Shown: positions 4,093 to 32,857 of the stretch, piece by piece | Position numbering within the stretch: the stretch's first letter is position 1 | Layout: each line of letters opens with the position of its first letter | From: Clostridia bacterium | Lineage (GTDB): Bacteria; Bacillota; Peptococcia; DRI-13; DTU073 | Length of the DNA: 33,692 bases | Assembly: GCA_028684195.1 (NCBI GenBank) | Contig: JAQUGH010000007.1 | Location: 1-33,692, forward strand | Reading direction: 5' to 3' | The notes under the pieces: generated by a model | Databases searched by the model: none | Told to the model about the DNA's origin: nothing | What the model saw: only the letters and a program-made list of their open reading frames with translations | Made by a program: the position numbers and the translations under genes

Positions 4093-4095
4093 AAA

Positions 4096-5046
4096 GTGTC
4101 CTTTTCAACAAAAACTAAGGACGAGCTTGCTCATCTTTTTACAGAAAAGAACTGTTGTGAGGTTGCTGAATTGGCAGCTCTTATTCGGATGAATGGAACA
4201 ATTACTATTGGTTCACAGCAACATGTAAGCTTGATTGCGACAACAGGAAGTTCACCTGTGGCTAGAAAAATATTTAGGCTATTTAAAAAAACATATAATT
4301 TAGAACCGGAAATTAGGATTCAAAGAAGGAATAGATTTAAGAAAAGCAATTGTTATAGTGTTTATTTGAATGATACGATAGAAGTTCGCAGTATTATTAA
4401 AGAGTTAGGTGTTTTAAATGAGGATGGAAATTTAGTACAGGGAATAAGCCAAAAATTAATAAAATCAAAATGTTGTCGCCGTAGCTATCTACGTGGGGCG
4501 TTTTTGGGTGCCGGTTCTGTTAGCGATCCAGGGGGGAACTATCATTTGGAACTTGTAGCAAATAATGAAATTTATGCTTATGATTTAGCGGCACTTATGA
4601 ATACGTTTTTGGAAATTCAGGCGAAGGTTGGTATTAGAAAAAACCTATACATTGTATATTTAAAAGAAAGTGAGCAAATAGTATCTTTCCTTAGTGTAGT
4701 AGGGGCCCATACAGCTTTGCTGGATTTTGAAAATGTTAGAATAGTAAAAGGTATGCGTAATAAGGTAAATCGCTTAGTTAATTGTGATACAGCAAATCTA
4801 AAAAAATCTGTTGACGCTTCCTTGAAGCAAATTGAACATATTAAATTAATTGATAGCGTTATAGGGTTGGACAAGCTTGCTCTTCGTCTGAGGGAGGTGG
4901 CACGCTTGCGGCTTGAAAATCCTGATATTTCTCTTAAAGAATTGGGAGAAATGATGAAACCCGTTGTCGGAAAATCCGGGATCAATCATCGCTTTAGAAA
5001 AATAGAACTTATTGCTAATGATTTGCGAGGAAAAAACTTTCAATGA
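4096..5046 (+). CDS. whiA: DNA-binding protein WhiA
   Basis: WhiA joins a LAGLIDADG homing-endonuclease-like domain (here about residues 20-210, with RGAFLGAGSVSDP in place of a catalytic motif) to a C-terminal helix-turn-helix (about 225-310; LRLREVARLRLENPDISLKELGEMM and VGKSGINHRFRKI). At 316 aa it is the usual length. In actinomycetes it switches on sporulation genes; in Firmicutes it acts in cell division and chromosome segregation. GTG 4096 lies 7 nt after AAAGGGGGG. Members of the rapZ-yvcK-whiA cluster are often followed by an HPr/Crh gene; here a ferredoxin follows instead. Confidence 0.96.
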   Translation: MSFSTKTKDELAHLFTEKNCCEVAELAALIRMNGTITIGSQQHVSLIATTGSSPVARKIFRLFKKTYNLEPEIRIQRRNRFKKSNCYSVYLNDTIEVRSIIKELGVLNEDGNLVQGISQKLIKSKCCRRSYLRGAFLGAGSVSDPGGNYHLELVANNEIYAYDLAALMNTFLEIQAKVGIRKNLYIVYLKESEQIVSFLSVVGAHTALLDFENVRIVKGMRNKVNRLVNCDTANLKKSVDASLKQIEHIKLIDSVIGLDKLALRLREVARLRLENPDISLKELGEMMKPVVGKSGINHRFRKIELIANDLRGKNFQ

Positions 5047-22319: not shown

Positions 22320-22594
22320 TAAATAGAAAACCTTTGAGCAAGAAAAGTACGAAAAGTCGGGTGTATCCAGAGAATCGCTGGTTGGTGTGAATGCGATAGC
22401 ATAGATTTTTCCGAATGGTCTTGTGAGGGTGGCTTGAAACTGCTAGGCAGGAGTAGACGCTGACGGGGACCCCGTCCGTTATCAGTGGGGTGCATATGAT
22501 GGTATGCAAAATGAGTGGATGATTTTTATCATCAATTTGGGTGGTATCGCAGAAGTTTAAAGCTTTTGTCCCTTTTAGGGGCAGGGGCTTTTTT
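22320..22594 (+). ncRNA. tryptophan-specific T-box leader with intrinsic terminator
   Basis: The region upstream of trpE has T-box architecture: an AGAGAA element and stem I, a specifier loop reading GAA-TGG (Trp codon at 22416-22418), a central pseudoknot-like GC-rich part, the T-box sequence GGGTGGTATCGC (22539-22550) and a terminator. The terminator arms are 22562-22572 and 22578-22588, loop TTTTA, followed by six Ts. Uncharged tRNA-Trp should stabilise the antiterminator and allow transcription of trpEGDCF. The 5' end is inferred from the promoter. Confidence 0.9.
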
Positions 22595-22631
22595 GTTTTA
22601 CCTAAAACACTATCAAAATAAAAGAAAGGAG

Positions 22632-22656
22632 TTTTCATCCCATCAATTGATGAAAA
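22632..22656. repeat. inverted repeat between the T-box and trpE
   Basis: TTTTCATC (22632-22639) and GATGAAAA (22649-22656) are perfect inverted arms. Inside them is a 12-bp palindrome CATCAATTGATG (22641-22652). It lies just 5' of the trpE ribosome site AGGTGG (22658-22663), so it could affect trpE translation or bind a regulator. Confidence 0.5.
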
Positions 22657-22668
22657 TAGGTGGCTGTT

Positions 22669-24129
22669 ATGATTCGACCGAGTTGTGAAAAAATTGAGGA
22701 ATTGGCTAAGATGTTTAATACGATTCCAATTTGCAAGGAAATATACGCAGATGAGGTAACTCCAATTACACTGTTGCGTAAGCTGGCACAAATCAGCCGA
22801 AGGTATTATCTTCTGGAAAGTATTGAAGGCGGCGAAAAATGGGGACGATACTCCTTCCTCGGTTTTGACCCCATTCTCCATGTAATCTGTAAAAACAACA
22901 CAGTAACAATCGAAGGCAGTGAAACAAAAACGGTTCATACAGATAAGCCTCTTGAGATATTGAGGGGGTTGCTATCAAACTATCGGGCACCCAAACTCAG
23001 CGATATGCCTCCTTTTAGCGGGGGATTTGTGGGGTATTTCGCCTATTCCATGATTGGGTATGCCGAGCCGATATTGAAAATCAAAAGAGGTGATTTAAAT
23101 GATTTTGACCTGATGCTTTTCGACAAGGTAATTGCCTATGACCATCTGAAACAGAAGATTTGTGTAGTAGTTAATATGAATACGGAGCATATTATGGAAA
23201 ACTACGGAAAGGCAGTATCCGAAATCGAGAATATAGTACGAATCATTACCGATTCACAGCCACTTCCCAAACTGCGTACGGATGAAAAAGTAAATTTCAA
23301 ATGTAATGTATCCAAAGAAGATTATTGCTCGACAGTGGAAAAAACCAAGGAATATATCAGGGATGGTGATATTTTTCAGGCAGTTATCTCATGTCGGTTT
23401 GAGAGCGAATATTACAGCAGTCTGATTAATGCCTACCGTGTGCTTCGTACCACTAATCCTTCGCCTTATATGGTATATATGCATATGGATAATGTTGAAA
23501 TAATGAGTACCTCTCCCGAAACTCTTGTCCGTCTGCAGGATGGAAGACTTTCTACCTTCCCTGTTGCAGGCTCAAGACCTAGGGGTGCTACTACACAGGA
23601 GGATATTGCTCTTGAGAAGGAACTGCTTCAGGATGAAAAGGAGTTATCGGAACACAATATGTTGGTGGATTTGGCGAGAAATGATTTAGGAAAAATTTCA
23701 AAATTCTCTTCCGTGGAAGTAATCGACTATATGATGATTCACCGATACTCCAAAATCATGCATATCGCATCTTGCGTAGAGAGTGATATACGGCAGGATT
23801 GTGATGCTTTAACAGGGATTGAAGCAATTTTGCCTGCAGGCACTCTTTCGGGTGCACCCAAGATTCGTTCTTGCGAAATTATTGAGGAATTGGAAAGTGA
23901 GCCACGGGGTATCTATGGCGGAGCTCTCGGCTATCTGGATTTTACCGGGAATTTGGACACTTGTATTGCCATACGCATGGCTGTGAAGAAGGACGACAGG
24001 GTTGTAGTTCAGGCAGGTGGCGGCATAGTAGCTGATAGCGTCCCCGAGCTGGAGTATGCGGAAGCAGGAAATAAGGCAAGAGCCGTTATGAACGCAATTC
24101 TTAATGCAGGCGAGGTGAATGACGGATGA
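22669..24129 (+). CDS. trpE: anthranilate synthase component I
   Basis: TrpE makes anthranilate from chorismate, using ammonia from TrpG. The product of about 486 aa has the Trp feedback-site motif LLES (YYLLESIEGGEKWGRYSFLGFDP), then the chorismate-binding domain with DGDIFQAVISCRFE, PSPYMVYM, FPVAGSRPRG, DEKELSEHNMLVDLARNDLG, LPAGTLSGAPKIR and RGIYGGALGYLDFTGNLDTCIAIR. The intact LLES motif suggests feedback inhibition by tryptophan. ATG 22669 is 5 nt after AGGTGG; an in-frame GTG (22660) overlaps that site. The stop overlaps trpG by 4 nt. The trp genes look less A/T-rich than the flanking core genes. Confidence 0.97.
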   Translation: MIRPSCEKIEELAKMFNTIPICKEIYADEVTPITLLRKLAQISRRYYLLESIEGGEKWGRYSFLGFDPILHVICKNNTVTIEGSETKTVHTDKPLEILRGLLSNYRAPKLSDMPPFSGGFVGYFAYSMIGYAEPILKIKRGDLNDFDLMLFDKVIAYDHLKQKICVVVNMNTEHIMENYGKAVSEIENIVRIITDSQPLPKLRTDEKVNFKCNVSKEDYCSTVEKTKEYIRDGDIFQAVISCRFESEYYSSLINAYRVLRTTNPSPYMVYMHMDNVEIMSTSPETLVRLQDGRLSTFPVAGSRPRGATTQEDIALEKELLQDEKELSEHNMLVDLARNDLGKISKFSSVEVIDYMMIHRYSKIMHIASCVESDIRQDCDALTGIEAILPAGTLSGAPKIRSCEIIEELESEPRGIYGGALGYLDFTGNLDTCIAIRMAVKKDDRVVVQAGGGIVADSVPELEYAEAGNKARAVMNAILNAGEVNDG

Positions 24130-24710
24130 TTTTGTTAATTGATAACTATGATAGCTTTTCATATAATCTTGTACAGCTTGCCGGAAGTTTTAACACCAAT
24201 ATTCAAGTTATCCGTAACGATGAACTGACATTGGAGGAGATACGCATTCTGGAGCCTTCACATATTATCCTTTCACCCGGACCGGGCTATCCGAGAGATG
24301 CCGGTGTGTGTGAAGAAGTGATTGCAAGATTCAAGGGGGAAGTTCCGATTTTGGGTGTTTGTCTTGGACATCAGGCAATATGTGAGGTTTTTGGTGCCAC
24401 AATTACCTATGCGGTTCAGCTAATGCACGGAAAAAAGAGCAATATTAATATCGACAGCGTCTGCCCGATTTTTGAGGGGCTTCCCACAGAAATAGAAGCA
24501 GCTCGTTACCATTCGCTTATTGCCAAGAGGGAGACTATTACGAGTGAATTAGAGGTTATTGCAGAAGATGACATTGGCGAAGTCATGGCGGTACGGCACA
24601 AAAATTACAATATCTATGGGTTACAGTTTCATCCGGAATCTATTTTAACGCCTAAGGGCTATGTGATAATGAAAAATTTTTTAAGTTTGGATGGTGGTAA
24701 AAATGATTAG
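24126..24710 (+). CDS. trpG: anthranilate synthase component II (glutamine amidotransferase)
   Basis: TrpG releases ammonia from glutamine for TrpE. The 194-aa class I amidotransferase has the N-terminal LLIDNYDSFSYNL, the oxyanion region SPGPGYPRDAG, the nucleophile Cys in GVCLGHQAICE (about residues 78-88) and the catalytic His/Glu pair in QFHPESIL. It is a stand-alone subunit, not fused to TrpD. It is coupled to trpE through ATGA (24126-24129) and overlaps trpD by 8 nt. Confidence 0.97.
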   Translation: MILLIDNYDSFSYNLVQLAGSFNTNIQVIRNDELTLEEIRILEPSHIILSPGPGYPRDAGVCEEVIARFKGEVPILGVCLGHQAICEVFGATITYAVQLMHGKKSNINIDSVCPIFEGLPTEIEAARYHSLIAKRETITSELEVIAEDDIGEVMAVRHKNYNIYGLQFHPESILTPKGYVIMKNFLSLDGGKND

Positions 24711-25719
24711 AGAAGCAATACGCAGTGTTGTTGAGAAAAAGAACCTCCCGTTTGAAATGGCGAGGCTGGTAATGGAGGAAATTATGCAGGGGCAGGCGAC
24801 CAATGCACAGATAGCAGCTTTTTTAACGGCTATGCGGATGAAGGGCGAAACCATTGACGAAATCACTGCTTGTGCGACTGTTATGAGGGATCATTGCACA
24901 AAGCTACGGCATAAGGGAGACGTGTTGGAGATTGTGGGTACTGGCGGAGATGAAGCATATACCTTTAATATTTCTACCGTTGCTGCCTTTGTAGCGGCAG
25001 CAGCGGGCGTCCCTGTGGCGAAGCACGGTAACCGTAGTGTTTCCAGTAAGTGTGGAGCGGCAGATCTTCTTGAGGCTCTTGGTGTCAGACTGGATTTAAC
25101 TGCGGAACAAAGTGGGCGGGTCTTGGAGCAGACAGGGATGTGTTTTATGTTTGCACCGATTTACCATGCGTCCATGAAGTATGCGGCTCCCATCCGAAAA
25201 GAAATGGGCACGCGAACTATCTTTAATATATTGGGACCTCTGGCAAATCCGGCAAGTGCCTCAATTCAGTTGCTGGGCGTATATAATGAAAATTTAGTTA
25301 AACCTCTGGCTCAGGTGTTGTCAAATCTAGGCGTAAAACGTGCCATGGTGGTTCACGGAAACGATGGATTGGATGAAATCTCGCTGAGTACCACAACAAC
25401 AGTCTGCGAAGTTAATTGTGGAGAGTTAAGCAGTTATATCTTGGATCCCTGTGAATTTGGGTTCGAGCTCTGTCAGCCCGATGATTTGGTTGGCGGTGAT
25501 GCCGCGGAAAATGCCAAGATCGCACTCAGCATTCTTCGGGGAGAAAAAGGGTCAAAGCGTGATGTCGTTCTTCTTAATGCGACGGTGTGCTTGTATATGG
25601 CAGGAAAAACTGAAAAAATTTCCGACGGTATTGCTCTTGCGGCGGAAATCATCGAAAGTGGCAAGGCCTATGAGCAGATGAAAAGGTTTGTTAGAGCAAC
25701 TAATGAGGTGTCCCAATGA
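24703..25719 (+). CDS. trpD: anthranilate phosphoribosyltransferase
   Basis: TrpD joins anthranilate to PRPP. The 338-aa protein has an N-terminal helical domain (IREAIRSVVEKKNLPFEMARLVMEEIM), the PRPP/Mg motif GTGGDEAYTFNISTVAAFVAAAAG, the anthranilate-site KHGNRSVSSKCGAADLLEALG, and NILGPLANPA with HGNDGLDEIS. I chose ATG 24703, 5 nt after GGTGG, because it gives the family-typical N-terminus MIREAI; ATG 24691 in the same frame is possible. Its stop overlaps the trpC start (ATGA at 25716-25719). Confidence 0.96.
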   Translation: MIREAIRSVVEKKNLPFEMARLVMEEIMQGQATNAQIAAFLTAMRMKGETIDEITACATVMRDHCTKLRHKGDVLEIVGTGGDEAYTFNISTVAAFVAAAAGVPVAKHGNRSVSSKCGAADLLEALGVRLDLTAEQSGRVLEQTGMCFMFAPIYHASMKYAAPIRKEMGTRTIFNILGPLANPASASIQLLGVYNENLVKPLAQVLSNLGVKRAMVVHGNDGLDEISLSTTTTVCEVNCGELSSYILDPCEFGFELCQPDDLVGGDAAENAKIALSILRGEKGSKRDVVLLNATVCLYMAGKTEKISDGIALAAEIIESGKAYEQMKRFVRATNEVSQ

Positions 25720-26510
25720 TGCTTGACGACATTTATGCGTCGGCAATAAAAAGGGTAGCCACTGCCAAAAAAACGATCTCTTTAGCAGAAATGCGGCACA
25801 GAGCATTTGAAATGCAGATAGGACATTTTCGATTTGAAACCGCTTTGCGTGAACCGGATATTTCTTTTATTTGCGAAGTAAAAAAAGCATCTCCGTCCAA
25901 AGGGGTGATAGCGGAGGATTTTCCGTATCTTGATATTGCCCGTGAATATGAGGCGGCTGGTGCTTCTGCTATCTCCGTTTTAACGGAACCCGATTTTTTT
26001 CGTGGAAGTAACAGTTATTTAAGTGAAATAAGAGAGCAGGTAAAAATACCGCTGTTACGTAAGGATTTTACAGTTGACGAGTACCAGCTGTACGAGGCGA
26101 AGGTTATAGGTGCCGATGCGGTACTTTTGATATGTGCCCTGTTGGATATTGAAACCATACGTCAATATCTTGAAATCTGTGATAGGCTTGGAATTTCTGC
26201 GTTAGTTGAGGCACATACCAAGCAGGAAGTGGAATCCGCTGTTGCAATTGGGGCGAGAATCATCGGGGTAAACAATCGAAATCTGAAAACCTTTGAGGTT
26301 AATCTTGAAACATGTGCCAAACTTCGTCCCTTTGTGCCGGAGGAAACCCTGTTTGTCGCTGAAAGTGGGATTAAAACCTCCGATAATATCGCAATTCTTT
26401 GTCAAGCCGGGGTTGACGCTGTACTGATAGGAGAAACATTAATGCGCAGCAATAACAAAAGGGCAGCACTCAAAAATCTAAGGGAGGGGGTACACTGTGA
26501 CAAAAATTAA
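25716..26510 (+). CDS. trpC: indole-3-glycerol phosphate synthase
   Basis: TrpC closes the indole ring of CdRP, giving indole-3-glycerol phosphate. The 264-aa TIM barrel has CEVKKASPSKGVI (catalytic Lys), LTEPDFFRGS, LRKDFTVDEYQLYEAKVIGADAVLL (second catalytic Lys), ALVEAHTKQE (Glu), GVNNRNLKTFEV and the phosphate-binding VAESGI and LIGETLMRS. ATG 25716 follows GAGGTG and overlaps trpD by 4 nt. It overlaps trpF by 14 nt. Confidence 0.96.
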   Translation: MMLDDIYASAIKRVATAKKTISLAEMRHRAFEMQIGHFRFETALREPDISFICEVKKASPSKGVIAEDFPYLDIAREYEAAGASAISVLTEPDFFRGSNSYLSEIREQVKIPLLRKDFTVDEYQLYEAKVIGADAVLLICALLDIETIRQYLEICDRLGISALVEAHTKQEVESAVAIGARIIGVNNRNLKTFEVNLETCAKLRPFVPEETLFVAESGIKTSDNIAILCQAGVDAVLIGETLMRSNNKRAALKNLREGVHCDKN

Positions 26511-27123
26511 AATTTGCGGATTAAGCAGATTGCCGGATATTGAGGTTGTCAATGAAGTATTGCCAGATTATATTGGCTTTGTCTTTGCAGAAAGCAGTCG
26601 GAAAGTGAGCCGCCAACTGGCAGAGAAGATGAAAAAAGCATTGGATAGGAGAATCTTGACGGTAGGAGTATTTGTGAATACTGAACCAAGTGAAATTGTA
26701 CAGTTGTGTAAGGATAATATTATTGAAATGATACAATTGCACGGAGATGAGGATCTCTCATATATTACCGTACTTAAAAATGAGGTTTCTAACCCGATTA
26801 TAAAGGCGGTGCGAGTGCAAAGCTCACGTCAGCTTTTAGAGGCACAGTCGTTGCCCTGTGATTACCTGTTGCTTGACACATATCGGAAGGATGTATATGG
26901 AGGAAGCGGAAAAAACTTTGAATGGTCGCTGATTCCGAAACTGGAAAAGCCTTTTTTCCTTGCAGGTGGTTTGAACGCAAGAAATATTGAAGCCGCAGCT
27001 GTAGCTTGTCGTCCGTACTGTCTTGATGTCAGCAGCGGCGTGGAAACTGACGGGCTCAAGGATCAAGATAAAATCAGAGAGATTATAAGGATTGTTAGGG
27101 GTAGGAGTTACTCTTGCAATTAA
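26497..27123 (+). CDS. trpF: phosphoribosylanthranilate isomerase
   Basis: TrpF isomerises PRA to CdRP, the step before TrpC. The 208-aa barrel starts with KICGLSR (catalytic Cys in KICG), followed by DYIGFVFAESSRKVS, VGVFVN, IQLHGDEDLSYI, the catalytic Asp in LLLDTYRKDVYGGSGKNFEW, and the phosphate site LAGGLNARNI with VSSGVETDGLKD. GTG 26497 follows GGGAGGGGG. It is the last gene of the operon: trpB and trpA (tryptophan synthase) do not follow, and a tRNA gene comes next. Confidence 0.96.
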   Translation: MTKIKICGLSRLPDIEVVNEVLPDYIGFVFAESSRKVSRQLAEKMKKALDRRILTVGVFVNTEPSEIVQLCKDNIIEMIQLHGDEDLSYITVLKNEVSNPIIKAVRVQSSRQLLEAQSLPCDYLLLDTYRKDVYGGSGKNFEWSLIPKLEKPFFLAGGLNARNIEAAAVACRPYCLDVSSGVETDGLKDQDKIREIIRIVRGRSYSCN

Positions 27124-27162
27124 GTAAAAAAATTTGTTGTAGATAAAATTATAGTTTAGGTG

Positions 27163-27168
27163 TATAAT
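27163..27168 (+). promoter_or_regulatory. -10 box of the tRNA-Glu gene
   Basis: A perfect TATAAT lies 19 bp before the tRNA 5' end, within GGTGTATAATT. The same 11-mer occurs at the second secG -10 box (15660-15671). The -35 region (TAGATA at 27140-27145) is weak. Confidence 0.5.
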
Positions 27169-27186
27169 TTATATTGTGTGTGATAT

Positions 27187-27261
27187 GGTCCATTGGTCAA
27201 GCGGTTAAGACGCCACCCTCTCACGGTGGAATCAGGGGTTCGATTCCCCTATGGATCACCA
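27187..27261 (+). tRNA. tRNA-Glu (anticodon CTC)
   Basis: The cloverleaf is complete: acceptor GGTCCAT pairs with ATGGATC (one G-U), the D-loop holds GGTCAAGCGGTTAAGA, the anticodon stem CCACC/GGTGG encloses loop CTCTCAC with anticodon CTC at 27220-27222, and the T-arm is GGGGTTCGATTCCCC. CCA is encoded at the end. It reads GAG codons. It is followed by a GluRS-like gene, and its 18-nt T-arm stretch (27233-27250) is identical to that of the tmRNA (21995-22012). Confidence 0.97.
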
Positions 27262-27287
27262 AAGAAAAAAAGATGGTTCTTTGTTTT
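27260..27287 (+). terminator. possible weak terminator after tRNA-Glu
   Basis: CAAAGAA (27260-27266) pairs with TTCTTTG (27277-27283) around a 10-nt A-rich loop, followed by TTTT. The left arm uses the last bases of the tRNA CCA end. It is weak and A/T-rich, so read-through into the GluRS gene is likely. Confidence 0.35.
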
Positions 27288-27342
27288 AATTGACAAGGTG
27301 AGCTGTCTTTAATTTTAATTACAATGAAAATGAGGAAAAATG

Positions 27343-28983
27343 ATGGATTATAAGAAGTTGGCTGATATACTTTTCCCGGACATAACGAAATCAATATCTT
27401 ATTATGAAGAAACTGCATTTCCAAAGAGAGATTTAAGTGAGGGAGCAAAGGTTACCAGATTGGCACCAAGCCCTACAGGCTTTATTCACCTGGGTAATCT
27501 TTATGGAGCCTTCGTAGATGAACGTTTAGCTCATCAAAGCAAAGGGGTATTTATGCTTCGTATAGAAGATACAGATGATAAACGCAAGGTAGAGGGAGCG
27601 ATAAAAGCCATTATATCTTCCTTGGAATACTTTGACTTAAAGTTTGACGAGGGAGCAAGCATTGATGGGGCAGTAGGAAATTATGGACCGTATTTTCAAA
27701 GTAATCGTGGAGAAATTTATCAGACTGTAGCAAAATATTTAGTTGAGGTTGGTAGAGCCTACCCTTGCTTTTGCACTGAGGAGGAATTAGGAGAAATAAG
27801 GGAACGGCAAGTGTCTGTTAATGTCAATACTGGATACTATGGAAAATGGGCTAGAGATAGAGAGTTATCCTTAGAAGATATAGAGAAACATTTAAAAAAT
27901 AATATAAGCTTTGTCATTCGATTGAAATCAAGGGGTAATCAGGAAGATACATTTGAAATCAGTGACGCTATTAGAGGCTGTCTTTCATTACCTGCGAATT
28001 ATCAGGATGTAGTTATTTTGAAAGCGAATGGAATACCTACCTATCATTTTGCCCATGTGGTAGATGATCACTTGATGAGAATAACCCATGTAGTAAGAGG
28101 AGAAGAATGGCTTTCAACCTTACCTATACATTTCGAATTATTTAGAACATTAGGCTGGGAGTTGCCGGTATACTGTCATACAGCTCACCTGATGAAGATA
28201 GACAACGGGGTAAAGAGAAAACTATCAAAAAGGAAAGACCCAGAATTGGGATTAGAGTATTACATGAAATTAGGATATCACCCAGAAGCAGTTAGGGAAT
28301 ATCTGTTGACAATTTTAAATTCTAATTTTGAAGAATGGAGAAATGAAAGCCCAGATAGCGATATAGATAATTTTCAATTCACATTAAATAAAATGAGTAA
28401 CTCCGGTGCTTTGTTTGACTTAAATAAGCTAAATGATATTAGCCAAAATGTTCTGGTGAAAATTCCGGTGAAAGAAATTTATGATTTCCTGCTCAGATGG
28501 GCGAAGGACTATAAAAGAGAAATAGTTGATTCCTTAATTGATTATAAGGATGCTGTATTAAAAATGTTGTCTATCGGCAGAGATTCTGATAAGCCACGTA
28601 AGGATTTAATATATTGCCAACAAATATTTGAACATATCAGCTATTTCTTTGACGATTATTTTAAAGTTGTCGATAAATATCCTGAAAATATAGAGGATGC
28701 AGAGGCTCGCAAGTTGCTGAAAGCGTACTTGGAGACCTATAATCACGGTGATGATCAAAGCCAATGGTTTGATAAAATAAGAGTAATAGCAACAGAAAAT
28801 GGCTACGCAGCAAAGCCAAAGGAATTTAAGAAGAATCCCCAGATGTACAAGGGTCATGTTGGGGATGTTAGTGTCGTAATTAGAATAGCAATTGTAGGTC
28901 GCAGTTCTTCACCGGATATTTGGGAGCTTCAGCAAATTATGGGTGAAAAAAAAGTAAGGGAAAGAGTTCAAAGTTTGATATAG
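27343..28983 (+). CDS. gltX: atypical glutamyl-tRNA synthetase (class I, GluRS/GlnRS type)
   Basis: GluRS charges tRNA-Glu with glutamate. The product of about 546 aa is longer than usual bacterial GluRS (around 470-490). The N-terminal Rossmann domain has RLAPSPTGFIHLGNLYGAF (HIGH motif as HLGN, near residue 50) and FMLRIEDTDDKRKVEGA. The KMSKS motif is KLSKR in VKRKLSKRKDPE. There is a CFCTEEEL pair of cysteines, but the usual second half of that zinc site (a Cys after a Tyr) is replaced by YYGKWARD, so zinc binding is probably lost. About 40 extra residues precede the HIGH domain. ATG 27343 is 6 nt after GAGGA; ATG 27340 is also possible. It sits right behind tRNA-Glu(CUC). It could be a second GluRS alongside a canonical one elsewhere. 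Confidence 0.85.
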   Translation: MDYKKLADILFPDITKSISYYEETAFPKRDLSEGAKVTRLAPSPTGFIHLGNLYGAFVDERLAHQSKGVFMLRIEDTDDKRKVEGAIKAIISSLEYFDLKFDEGASIDGAVGNYGPYFQSNRGEIYQTVAKYLVEVGRAYPCFCTEEELGEIRERQVSVNVNTGYYGKWARDRELSLEDIEKHLKNNISFVIRLKSRGNQEDTFEISDAIRGCLSLPANYQDVVILKANGIPTYHFAHVVDDHLMRITHVVRGEEWLSTLPIHFELFRTLGWELPVYCHTAHLMKIDNGVKRKLSKRKDPELGLEYYMKLGYHPEAVREYLLTILNSNFEEWRNESPDSDIDNFQFTLNKMSNSGALFDLNKLNDISQNVLVKIPVKEIYDFLLRWAKDYKREIVDSLIDYKDAVLKMLSIGRDSDKPRKDLIYCQQIFEHISYFFDDYFKVVDKYPENIEDAEARKLLKAYLETYNHGDDQSQWFDKIRVIATENGYAAKPKEFKKNPQMYKGHVGDVSVVIRIAIVGRSSSPDIWELQQIMGEKKVRERVQSLI

Positions 28984-29022
28984 CGAATTTCAAGAAGGTA
29001 ATATGTTCAACTAATGCTAGTA

Positions 29023-29374: not shown

Positions 29375-29828
29375 ATGAATTTTAGAAAATCAGGTATTAT
29401 GTTGGGAGTTTTATTGTCGTTATCCTTACTGTTTACAGCGTGTGCAGGTGATCAAGACAATCAGAGTGTTGGCAGTGAAGATAGTTTGCAGAGAGTTTTA
29501 GATGCAGGTAAACTTACCGTTGTCGGAAGCGGAGGTTATCCTCCTTTTAATCATATTGATGATAATGGCGATGTAATTGGGTTCGATGTTGAGGTAGGCG
29601 AAGAAATTGCGGAAAGACTTGGTGTTGAGCTTAATTATGTAACTGGAGAATGGTCTGGTTTAGTTGAAGGACTTCGTAACAGTCGTTACGATGCAATTTT
29701 GGGAAGTATGGCTATTACAGACGAAAGGTTACAGTCAGTTAATTTTTCAATTCCTTATTATTATTCAGGTGCACAGCTTGTTGTTCGCGGTGATTCCGGT
29801 ATAACCGGTCCGAGTGAAATGGAAGGTA
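29375..29828 (+). pseudogene. truncated amino-acid ABC transporter substrate-binding lipoprotein
   Basis: The frame begins with a lipoprotein signal (KSGIMLGVLLSLSLLFTAC, lipobox LFTAC at about residues 19-23), then the SBP_bac_3 fold: LQRVLDAGKLTVVGSGGYPPF, IGFDVEVGEEIAERLGVELNYV, EWSGLVEGLRNSRYDAILGSMAITDERL and FSIPYYYSGAQLVV. Homology stops near residue 150, about 60% of the normal length, and runs out of frame into permease sequence; the frame itself ends at 29860. ATG 29375 follows GGGGGAG. The protein lacks its second lobe and cannot bind substrate normally. It is the front half of a deletion product. Confidence 0.88.
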
Positions 29829-30035
29829 ATGCATCGCATTATACTTCCGCAAGCCTTTAAGCAAGCCATACCCTCCTTGAGCAATCAATTTATTATTGCA
29901 TTGAAGGATTCTTCCCTTGTCAGTTCAATAGCGGTTCCGGAACTGTTGTTGAAAGCAAAGCAGATTGGTTTATCTAATTTCAGATTGATGGAGATGCTCA
30001 CGGTGGCAGCTGTTTTTCTGAGTCGAATATTATAA
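29829..30035 (+). pseudogene. C-terminal fragment of a polar amino-acid ABC transporter permease
   Basis: In another frame from the binding-protein piece, the sequence reads HRIILPQAFKQAIPSLSNQF then IIALKDSSLVSSIAVPELLLKAKQIG and NFRLMEMLTVAAVF. This matches the end of His/Glu/Gln-type ABC permeases just after the EAA loop. The N-terminal two-thirds of the permease are gone, and the last membrane helix is cut short after VAAVF by a stop. With the preceding feature it shows an internal deletion that removed the binding protein's C-lobe and most of the permease. No ATPase gene follows. Confidence 0.88.
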
Positions 30036-30151: not shown

Positions 30152-31462
30152 ATGTATAGAACAGCGATAGAGGACTTGTATAAATGGAAAGCGAAGCGGA
30201 ATAAAAAGCCGCTCATTATTCGTGGTGCAAGGCAAGTCGGGAAGACCTGGCTGATGAAGGAGTTTGGTAGAGATTCCTTTGAAAAAACCGTTTATATCAG
30301 CTTTGACAATAACCAGCGTATGAAGGATTTGTTTTCATCTGATTTGGATGTGAAACGCATTGTGATAGGGTTGGAGCTTTATTCCGGACAGAAAATTGAT
30401 CCCGTAAATACCTTGCTCATCTTCGATGAAATACAGGAAGTACCAAAAGCATTAACCGCACTGAAATACTTTAATGAGAATGTTCCCGAGTATCAAATTG
30501 TATGTGCCGGTTCACTCTTGGGTGTTGCTTTGCATCAAGGAACATCGTTTCCTGTAGGTAAGGTAGAGTTTTTAGATTTATATCCTCTTAGCTTTACGGA
30601 GTTTTTGACTGCGATGGGCAACGGGCAGTACGTGGAGTTGTTACAAAAAGGTGACTTTGAGATGGTGACCACATTCAAGCAGACGTACATCGACATGCTC
30701 AAATACTATTACTATTTAGGTGGGATGCCGGAGGTTGTGCAGAGCTTTTCTGAGAACAGAGATTTCACTGAGGCACGGGAAATACAACAGCGTATTCTTG
30801 ATGCCTACGAGCAGGATTTTTCCAAGCATGCTCCAAATGACGTTGTGCCAAAAATCAGAATGCTTTGGAACAGTATTCCTGCACAACTTACCAAAGAAAA
30901 CAAGAAATTCATCTATGGACTTATCAAGGAAGGTGCACGGGCGAAGGAATATGAACAGGCTATGCTTTGGCTGGTTGATTGTGGGCTTGTTCATAAGGTT
31001 CAGCGGGTAAATACACCTAGTCTCCCACTCAAAGCCTATGAGGATTTAAAAGCCTTTAAACTGTTTTTGGTTGACGTTGGTTTGCTTTCCTGTATGGTGC
31101 GTCTGAATCAAAGCACGCTTTTGGATGGTAATGAGCTTTTTAAGGAATTCAAAGGTGCGTTGACTGAACAATATGTATTGCAGCAGTTAAAGACCTTTAA
31201 GGAAATAGAGACTTATTATTGGACAAATGATCGTGGTGGTGCAGAAATAGACTTTATTGTGGATGACGGCAGCTCAGTCGTTCCAATTGAAGTTAAGGCA
31301 GAAACGAATTTAAAGGCAAAAAGCTTGAAAACATATCATGAAAAGTTTCAGCCTAAGCTATCCATTCGTACATCTATGGCGGATTATAAACGTGAAAAAT
31401 GGCTGCTAAATTTGCCACTGTATGCAATTAAAGTGATAACCGATACTATAGATGAACTTTGA
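30152..31462 (+). CDS. AAA family ATPase with C-terminal DUF4143 domain (copy 1)
   Basis: The 436-aa protein has an AAA_14 ATPase domain (residues about 15-150): Walker A RGARQVGKTW (near 24-33), Walker B LLIFDEIQEV, and the sensor-like CAGSLLGVALHQ. A DUF4143 region (about 200-400) follows. It ends in AEIDFIVDDG...PIEVKAE, where Asp367 and Glu380-x-Lys382 fit the PD-(D/E)XK nuclease-like pattern. The family is widespread and patchily distributed in bacteria and its role is not established. ATG 30152 lies 5 nt after AGGTGAG. A paralogue follows in tandem with its own promoter. The gene looks less A/T-rich than the core genes at the left of the window. Confidence 0.9.
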   Translation: MYRTAIEDLYKWKAKRNKKPLIIRGARQVGKTWLMKEFGRDSFEKTVYISFDNNQRMKDLFSSDLDVKRIVIGLELYSGQKIDPVNTLLIFDEIQEVPKALTALKYFNENVPEYQIVCAGSLLGVALHQGTSFPVGKVEFLDLYPLSFTEFLTAMGNGQYVELLQKGDFEMVTTFKQTYIDMLKYYYYLGGMPEVVQSFSENRDFTEAREIQQRILDAYEQDFSKHAPNDVVPKIRMLWNSIPAQLTKENKKFIYGLIKEGARAKEYEQAMLWLVDCGLVHKVQRVNTPSLPLKAYEDLKAFKLFLVDVGLLSCMVRLNQSTLLDGNELFKEFKGALTEQYVLQQLKTFKEIETYYWTNDRGGAEIDFIVDDGSSVVPIEVKAETNLKAKSLKTYHEKFQPKLSIRTSMADYKREKWLLNLPLYAIKVITDTIDEL

Positions 31463-31507
31463 GCGGAGAGGTCAATTAGAAACAATAAGAAAATTTGAAT
31501 AAAAGTG

Positions 31508-31536
31508 TTGATAATTGCATATATTATCGGTATAAT
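31508..31536 (+). promoter_or_regulatory. SigA promoter of the second AAA/DUF4143 gene
   Basis: TTGATA (31508-31513, 5 of 6) and a perfect TATAAT (31531-31536) are spaced by 17 bp. The inverted arms AAAGTGTT (31502-31509) and AACACTTT (31551-31558) bracket the promoter, with the second arm between the ribosome site GAGGTGAT and ATG 31559. The predicted leader is only about 15-17 nt. Confidence 0.8.
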
Positions 31537-31558
31537 AAATGCGAGGTGATAACACTTT

Positions 31559-32857
31559 ATGGAACGTAAAATAGTTAAACAACTAATTAAATGGAAACAC
31601 AATCCTAAAAAAATGCCACTTCTCATTTATGGTGCAAGACAAGTTGGTAAAACTTACACTGCTTTGACTTTTGGTAAGCAATACTATAAAAATACGGTTT
31701 ATTTCAACATGGAGGGTTCCAATGAAATTGCGGCTATTTTTGAGCGCGACTTAAATCCAGAACGCATTATTAAAGAACTTGCGACAAAATGTGGACAGTC
31801 GATATTTAAGGGTGATACCCTCATCATCTTTGATGAAATACAAGCTTGTGAACGTGCGTTGACATCCCTCAAATATTTTTGTGAAGAGGCACCGGAATAT
31901 CATATTATTGCGGCGGGAAGTTTGCTCGGCGTTGCACTAAACCGTGAAAAATATTCTTTTCCTGTTGGCAAGATAGATATGATGACCTTGTATCCGCTGG
32001 ATTTTGAGGAGTTTTTGTGGGCAACAGAAAACGAAAAAATCTGTGCCTTAATTAGAGAATGCTACGAAAGCTTTTTGCCGTTTGCATTACATGAAACGGC
32101 AATGGACTTGTACAAAACCTATTTGGTTGTCGGAGGGATGCCGAGAGCCGTTTCTGAATATGTTGAAACCAAGGATTTTAATTTTGTCATGGCTACGCAA
32201 AAATCTTTAAACGATGCCTATATTGCTGATATGGCGAAATATGCTACGCCACAGGAAACTACGAAAATCATGGCTGCATGGACGAGTGTTCCGGCACAGT
32301 TTGCAAAAGAAAACCATAAGTTTCAATACAAGGTTATTAAATCCGGTGCTCGAGCATATGAGTATGAAACACCATTAGACTGGCTGAAAACCGCAGGAAT
32401 AATTAACAAATGTATCCGCATTAAAGAAGGAAAAATACCGCTTCTTGCATATGTCGATAACAATTCATTCAAGGTCTATATGGTGGATACAGGACTTTTA
32501 TGCTCCAAGTTTAATATTTCCGCCAATGTTGTGCTTAATAGCCCAATTAGTTTCAATGGCTTTAAGGGTGCACTGACAGAAAACTATATTATGCAGGTAC
32601 TTGTTTTAAATGAAATCAATCCCTTTTATTGGAGTTCTCCCGGTAAAGCAGAATTGGACTTTGTATTTCAAGATCGTGATGGAAACATCATTCCTCTGGA
32701 AGGAAAATCGGCAGATAATGTAAGGGCAAAAAGCTTGAAAACATTTATTTCGTTGTATAAACCGCCCTATGCCATTCAAGTATCTGCTAAAAACTTTGGA
32801 TTTGAAAACAATATTAAGAGTATTCCGTTGTATGCGTTGTTTTGCTTGAAGTTATAA
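31559..32857 (+). CDS. AAA family ATPase with C-terminal DUF4143 domain (copy 2)
   Basis: This 432-aa paralogue of the preceding gene has Walker A YGARQVGKTY, Walker B LIIFDEIQAC, AAGSLLGVALN and the shared FPVGKI...LYPLDFEEFL block, then the GGMPRAV motif and the DUF4143 region. Its C-terminal nuclease-like motif is AELDFVFQ...PLEGKSA, so Asp and ExK are kept, and RAKSLKTF matches copy 1 (KAKSLKTY). The two copies are clearly related but diverged throughout, so the duplication, or the acquisition of two homologues, is not recent. ATG 31559 follows GAGGTGAT at 31543-31550. The stop lies about 25 bp before a methyltransferase relic. Confidence 0.9.
   Translation: MERKIVKQLIKWKHNPKKMPLLIYGARQVGKTYTALTFGKQYYKNTVYFNMEGSNEIAAIFERDLNPERIIKELATKCGQSIFKGDTLIIFDEIQACERALTSLKYFCEEAPEYHIIAAGSLLGVALNREKYSFPVGKIDMMTLYPLDFEEFLWATENEKICALIRECYESFLPFALHETAMDLYKTYLVVGGMPRAVSEYVETKDFNFVMATQKSLNDAYIADMAKYATPQETTKIMAAWTSVPAQFAKENHKFQYKVIKSGARAYEYETPLDWLKTAGIINKCIRIKEGKIPLLAYVDNNSFKVYMVDTGLLCSKFNISANVVLNSPISFNGFKGALTENYIMQVLVLNEINPFYWSSPGKAELDFVFQDRDGNIIPLEGKSADNVRAKSLKTFISLYKPPYAIQVSAKNFGFENNIKSIPLYALFCLKL

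Follow-up and report, generated by a model that had tools for sequence, protein, structure and literature searches.

Displacement of aminoacyl-tRNA synthetases by horizontal transfer is well known, and a newly acquired synthetase must recognise the tRNAs of its host. In the literature searched, no description was found of such a displacement in which the enzyme was accompanied by a tRNA gene, a promoter and a hairpin. Among the glutamyl-tRNA synthetases (GluRS), the zinc motif is given as CxCx20-21Yx3C, and 105 of 212 bacterial enzymes are reported to have a long domain without this motif, with the conclusion that zinc is not essential (PMC4381286). Pairs of GluRS1 and GluRS2 have been described in Helicobacter, Acidithiobacillus and Thermotoga, and a functional GluRS2 is stated to glutamylate only tRNA-Gln (PMC3927822).

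The window examined here is the whole 33,692-nt stretch of contig JAQUGH010000007.1 from a Clostridia bacterium, and it carries a tRNA-Glu(CUC) gene directly ahead of a long GluRS gene (gltX). We consider it probable (about 0.75) that a promoter-tRNA-hairpin-gltX unit of ~1.9 kb was gained by horizontal transfer and that the resident GluRS was displaced. As in other synthetase displacements a foreign enzyme would have replaced the resident one, but here the cognate tRNA gene, the promoter and the leader hairpin would have come along.

Organization of the tRNA-Glu(CUC)-gltX unit

The first-pass annotation had reported a tRNA-Glu(CUC) beside a long GluRS, and this arrangement is real (ARAGORN, Rfam RF00005, ORF and TIGR00464), with 78 nt rather than the 82 bp given there between the 3' end of the tRNA and the start of gltX. 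The features are as follows.

27128-27186, + strand, promoter region with TAGATA-17-TATAAT at 27140-27168 (sigma-70-like consensus match; predicted)
27187-27261, + strand, tRNA-Glu, anticodon CUC, CCA encoded (ARAGORN; Rfam RF00005, 63.3 bits)
27269-27310, + strand, hairpin and then a U-rich stretch, UUUAAUUUU, between tRNA and gltX; likely a leaky terminator or leader hairpin
27340-28983, + strand, gltX, long-type GluRS of 547 aa (ORF)
28984-28999, + strand, end of the DNA identity with the unit of Candidatus Formimonas warabiya, just 3' of the stop codon
29031-29061, + strand, terminator-like stem-loop and T-rich tail 3' of gltX (consensus match; 2 found versus 1.2 expected)

The hairpin was missed by a simple terminator scan, and folds in all eight leaders examined from the window's branch. 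Two of its 12 consensus pairs show compensatory double changes, and most of the others are kept via one-sided changes. A TGTATAAT-like promoter box is visible in the leaders of L065 (TGTATGAT), L063, L064 and L066. In two of these loci, L063 and L064, the tRNA is absent while the promoter and hairpin are kept and abut one another, and because both survive there without the tRNA, the promoter probably serves gltX through the hairpin. The tRNA and gltX are likely to form one transcription unit. We infer from this layout both co-transcription and attenuation: the tRNA would be processed out of a joint tRNA-gltX transcript, and the hairpin would let through to gltX no more than a fraction of the polymerases. 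T-box control of gltX was rejected, as Rfam at gathering score gave no T-box ahead of gltX; the only T-box of the window (22325-22576) lies before trpE.

Upstream of the unit, the region 22325-27123 holds this T-box leader followed by trpE, trpG, trpD, trpC and trpF-like genes (Pfam check for trpE only). The genes trpB and trpA are absent after the trpF-like gene, and the tRNA-gltX unit occupies their place. Downstream, at 29375-30035, there is a remnant of an amino-acid ABC transporter that looks like a deletion, consisting of an N-terminal part of a solute-binding protein (SBP_bac_3) and, in another frame, a permease-like C-terminal fragment. Two AAA_14/DUF4143 ATPase genes lie in tandem at 30152-32857.

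The long-type GluRS

The window GluRS scores 312 bits with gltX_bact (TIGR00464), above the cut-off of 289.95, and the same model was matched at 1e-50 or better by all 21 proteins compared. Assignment of the gene as a GluQRS was discarded, since all GluQRS models scored below cut-off and an anticodon domain is present. Pfam recognised the catalytic tRNA-synt_1c and Anticodon_2 (1.2e-6), and the protein divides into an N-terminal extension (about residues 1-37), a catalytic domain (38-365) and a helical anticodon-binding domain reaching to 547. An AlphaFold model, with the window protein and 20 relatives as input, had a mean pLDDT of 87.7 and aligned with the bacterial GluRS structures 4gri and 1j09 over both domains, to residue 547 (TM 0.85-0.86 by target length; Z 36.9 and 33.7). 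Both Anticodon_2 and the alignment of the predicted model place the anticodon-binding domain with the bacterial helical type.

The class I motifs are present as HLGN from residue 50 (HIGH-like) and KLSKR from residue 294. The zinc region reads C143xC145x20Y166x3W170 (CxCx20Yx3W) and does not match the four-ligand motif CxCx20-21Yx3C, as Trp170 stands in place of the third Cys, the last ligand. The earlier observation that HLGN and KLSKR are kept while the zinc site is partly lost is thus borne out by the alignment. The estimate of about 60 residues above the usual length was also a fair one: the 547 aa compare with canonical GluRS open frames of mostly 482-537 codons among those fetched, some of which begin upstream of the true start. 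In the alignment the extra residues are most of 1-33, 413-418 and 472-485, so that the additional length lies at the N-terminus, as an extension, and in short insertions within the anticodon domain.

An alignment of 92 proteins, 42 of the long type and 50 canonical, was used to compare zinc sites and length. None of the 42 long-type proteins has Cys at the last ligand position, which is taken by Trp, Tyr or Phe, and CxC is kept in 28. Read from the aligned rows, all 50 canonical proteins have CxC, and their zinc stretch ends in Cys in 49 and in His in one (G105). The loss of the final Cys to Trp in the window GluRS is the same as that given in PMC4381286 for the zinc-less group III enzymes such as that of Burkholderia thailandensis (CxMx20Yx3W); unlike these, most long-type members retain the first CxC. 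That the zinc change or the length, which had been put forward as signs of an unusual enzyme, marks the window protein as special is not supported, both being clade-wide. Its zinc-site state is an ordinary feature, because zinc-less bacterial GluRS are common and zinc is not essential according to the same source (PMC4381286), and we discarded zinc loss as a sign of special function on these grounds.

The motif RKD at 420-422 is present in all 42 long-type proteins. Its Arg, R420, is profile-aligned with Arg358 of Thermus thermophilus, a residue described as a determinant in that species, while in H. pylori GluRS1 no such effect followed from the same change (PMC3927822). The conservation of R420 suggests that long-type GluRS may discriminate against tRNA-Gln. 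The long type therefore resembles other bacterial GluRS (TIGR00464; tRNA-synt_1c and Anticodon_2) in passing the cut-off, in its HIGH-like and KLSKR motifs and in its two-domain predicted fold, and differs from them in its own deep clade, an N-terminal extension of about 37 residues, the insert at 472-485, and RKD together with the absent third zinc Cys, each in 42/42.

Distribution of the long type

A search with a profile of 12 members (E 1e-150) detected long-type GluRS in 10 genomes out of 38 from the class and in 16 out of 398 from the phylum. As a protein family the long type is not new, since genes of Lachnospira eligens and Monoglobus already carry the plain annotation gltX. When 38 long-type genomes were searched with TIGR00464, the long gene was the sole match in 34. 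A canonical GluRS stood alongside it in three, namely Ca. Formimonas warabiya (G428), G337 and G356, and the remaining genome (G323) had an additional GluQRS-sized match of 340 codons. Ca. Formimonas, which retains both enzymes, has the tRNA-linked long unit, and is the one such case among the 38. One long-type locus with a broken frame of 151 codons (L081) was excluded from the alignments and tree.

Large replicons with long-type GluRS were seen in Monoglobus, Lachnospira eligens and Ruminococcus albus (pRUMAL02). On pRUMAL02 of R. albus 7, which is typed as conjugative, the long-type gene is accompanied by another class I tRNA ligase (L204:131-1789). A long GluRS-like gene with 37% identity lies on a Streptomyces plasmid (L205:3001-4668) among transporter, flavin reductase and LuxR-type genes, where a role in self-resistance or in tRNA-using biosynthesis is conceivable. 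Carriage of the exact tRNA-gltX unit by a plasmid or phage was rejected: the long type occurs on replicons, but ARAGORN detected no whole tRNA in the eight stretches scanned. A match on a Clostridioides 'plasmid' was set aside as a canonical gltX between proS and cysS, probably in chromosomal DNA.

Synthetases and tRNAs of the host

The host genome (2.37 Mb in 236 contigs, completeness score 100%) contains two PF00749 genes, the window GluRS and one GlnRS that passes the glnS cut-off. The other gltX that the first-pass annotation had proposed to look for was not found in these 236 contigs, where a gap could hide one, and a second GluRS in the host was rejected on the PF00749 result. The UUC tRNA-Glu that it had also proposed to look for is present as two genes. 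Since the genome has a single GluRS and a single GlnRS besides the two tRNA-Glu(UUC) genes, the window GluRS should charge all tRNA-Glu, and its suggested role as a second enzyme alongside a canonical one falls away. No other candidate enzyme for charging tRNA-Glu(UUC) was found in the genome. The 19 genes of the window use GAA 394 times versus 186 for GAG, so charging of the UUC tRNA is indispensable, and the window GluRS, given its sole-copy status, would have to carry it out unless another GluRS sits in an assembly gap.

Two types of GluRS per genome, as in the GluRS1/GluRS2 pairs, also occur in Ca. Formimonas, G337 and G356; unlike the pairs described in PMC3927822, the host has one detectable GluRS together with GlnRS. 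Possible signs of discrimination between tRNA-Glu and tRNA-Gln in the host are this GlnRS gene and R420 at the Arg358 position, a residue that is not decisive in all species. GatB was also found. The single PF00152 gene is an AspRS, and because no AsnRS was found by this search, GatCAB is probably kept and needed for Asn-tRNA.

Phylogeny and the shared DNA segment

In the tree, the 42 long-type rows all fall into a single branch (support 100) that excludes the 50 canonical rows; these were partly chosen for tRNA linkage, and clustering of that label is not an unbiased test. The phylogeny suggested in the first-pass annotation thus yielded a separate long-type clade, in which the window gltX groups with Ca. 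Formimonas (96) and, within that group, with two Desulfoscipio MAGs (87), many of its neighbours being MAGs. Five members of the host family (G001-G005) have a canonical gltX in a family-consistent tree position. The window GluRS is 84% identical to that of Ca. Formimonas and 85% to that of a Desulfoscipio MAG (G426), versus 62% to that of G020, a member of the same order as the host. The canonical GluRS of Ca. Formimonas shares 57-62% with six canonical GluRS from the host family and order.

At the DNA level, 27128-28999, i.e., promoter, tRNA, hairpin and gltX, is 82% identical to the unit of Ca. Formimonas warabiya, the identity starting at 27128, and nothing beyond is shared. Because DNA identity to another genus is limited to the tRNA and the gene, their adjacency is not due to chance. 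Comparison with 30 other long-type loci revealed no shared flanking genes around gltX other than shadow frames of gltX; one 38% match links a gene near gltX in L080 to a window frame at 4093-5043, 22 kb from the window gltX. A larger transferred island was rejected, no shared flanks having been found. The contig is native to the host, because its RNase R is closest to the host's own family and order (G003 75%, G005 74%, G014 73%, G007 72%), and for the same reason a contaminating contig is unlikely.

The tRNAs fall out along similar lines. The CUC tRNA of the window shares 94% identity with its counterparts in Ca. Formimonas and G027, 88% with that of G020 and 81-83% with those of the host family (G001-G003). 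The reverse applies to the UUC tRNAs of the host, which share 90-94% with G001-G003 and 76-80% with Ca. Formimonas and G027. In G026, G027 and Ca. Formimonas, the D arm of the UUC tRNAs differs from that of the CUC tRNA beside the long gltX. By these comparisons gltX and the CUC tRNA look foreign, whereas RNase R and the UUC tRNAs appear to belong to the host. Transfer of a tRNA-synthetase unit should leave tRNA and enzyme with the same foreign affinity, and the shared segment with clear ends and no flanks in common; both were found.

A second type of tRNA-Glu, with the D arm GGAGAAG..CTTAACTC and an apparently reversed 11-24 pair, was seen in L178-L182, L184, L185, L134 and L096-L099. In some genomes with this second D arm the long-type GluRS is the sole GluRS, and must therefore accept both D-arm types. 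A strict tRNA-Glu pattern was unmatched in 10 of 44 genomes, which is not proof that tRNA-Glu is absent from them.

Vertical inheritance would account for the locus if both GluRS types and the tRNA-linked unit were already present when the order arose, and one type or the other was then lost from lineage to lineage. The long-type GluRS does occur in family f8, which belongs to the host's order, with a linked tRNA in G020 and G023. We regard this history as unlikely, given that both the window gene and the CUC tRNA are closer to Ca. Formimonas than to G020 (84-85%, with the Desulfoscipio MAG, versus 62% for the protein; 94% versus 88% for the tRNA) and that the gene nests with the former. Transfer of the unit into the host remains the preferred reading.

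Linkage of tRNA-Glu(CUC) and gltX across genomes

Linkage to a CUC tRNA is patchy among long-type loci. A tRNA-Glu(CUC) gene lies within 1 kb of gltX in 13 of 42, being upstream on the same strand in eight, divergent in one and downstream in four (family f32), and 29 have none within that distance. The f32 CUC tRNAs match the UUC type of their own genome (92-99%), and because of this resemblance the linkage in f32 seems to be of separate origin. Tentatively read from the leaders, tRNA fragments seem to remain in L066 and L067, and L068 and L070 are without a tRNA or a recognisable hairpin directly upstream; the unit is not whole everywhere. In an IMG/VR contig (L201:2880-3000, L209:1-10000) whose GluRS is 75% identical, a long-type gltX directly follows the 3' half of a tRNA-Glu(CUC), and a region resembling a prophage, its frames reading as tail, holin-like and amidase-like, comes to an end at that half tRNA; the prophage seems to use this tRNA as its integration site. 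The CUC tRNA is dispensable, given its loss from some relatives and the prophage lying within it in one.

These counts bear on the proposal of the first-pass annotation that enzyme and tRNA are a dedicated pair, in which the long GluRS would serve mainly the CUC tRNA next to it and so add a second system for reading GAG to that of a canonical GluRS. Some relatives do keep the adjacency, most often with the tRNA upstream on the same strand, and Ca. Formimonas has a canonical GluRS in addition to its tRNA-linked long unit. Against this stand the 29 of 42 long loci without a nearby CUC tRNA, the 34 of 38 genomes in which the long GluRS is alone, and a host in which no other GluRS was found and two UUC tRNA-Glu genes need charging, so that such a pair is very improbable. 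Of the original idea, enzyme and tRNA travelling together is upheld by the adjacency in some relatives and the foreign look of both, and the second system is not. The outcome named in advance as refuting the idea, a sole GluRS in the genome and relatives lacking the adjacency, was found in its first half alone.

Canonical loci show linkage of their own. A tRNA-Glu(CUC) lies downstream on the same strand in 18 of the 43 canonical loci fetched, which were partly selected for linkage, and seven of the 18 also have tRNA-Gln(CUG). In L138, L145, L147, L152, L153, L159 and L176, canonical gltX is followed by tRNA-Gln(CUG) and tRNA-Glu(CUC) on the same strand. When 199 genomes were drawn evenly, a CUC match was present in 59, and in at least 15 of these it lay within 1 kb of a GluRS gene (at least 11 canonical and at least 4 long), the linkage counts being lower bounds counted by hand from coordinates. 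With one CUC gene per 2.5 Mb, the chance expectation is estimated at well under one linked case. Genomes with two GluRS (G001, G002, G003, G010 and G012) have the tRNA at one of the two copies. Adjacency is thus no marker of the long type, and GluRS-tRNA-Glu(CUC) linkage recurs in two GluRS lineages; no account of it was found in the literature searched.

It is possible, if somewhat doubtful as the whole explanation, that this reflects a general regulatory habit in which either GluRS type is kept together with C34 tRNAs to match the supply of enzyme and tRNA, adjacency by itself then saying nothing about transfer. The frequency of linkage at canonical loci, in part with tRNA-Gln(CUG), and in the even draw argues for such a habit, which would alone leave unexplained why the CUC tRNA of the window follows the affinity of gltX and goes against that of the host. 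The habit and the transfer can hold together.

Discussion

The case for transfer of the unit draws on its parts, the one GluRS of the assembly, the clade, the foreign affinity of gltX and tRNA and the ends of the shared segment, all read from sequence; from these we infer the direction of transfer, the displacement and the tRNA specificity. In outline, a unit with a long-type GluRS would have entered the host genome from another lineage, and the incoming enzyme would have displaced the resident GluRS. The displacing enzyme would make Glu-tRNA for both the CUC and the UUC tRNA-Glu and would probably discriminate tRNA-Glu from tRNA-Gln, with GlnRS supplying Gln-tRNA and GatCAB probably retained for Asn-tRNA.

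More broadly, and tentatively, two deep GluRS lineages may be repeatedly linked to the accessory C34 tRNAs of their substrates, tRNA-Glu(CUC) and at times tRNA-Gln(CUG) as well, travel as small modules made up of the enzyme and a tRNA that it would charge well, enter genomes as a second system and be able to displace the native GluRS, the tRNA then decaying or becoming a prophage site. We hold this wider picture to be less than an even prospect.

A unit that brings its own tRNA into a genome keeping its native UUC tRNAs would be a natural test of how the recognition barrier is crossed. Related genomes show intermediates, with both enzymes in Ca. Formimonas and tRNA remnants elsewhere. The recurrence of the GluRS-tRNA-Glu(CUC) linkage in both enzyme lineages may also be a lead to enzyme-tRNA pairs that can be put to use.
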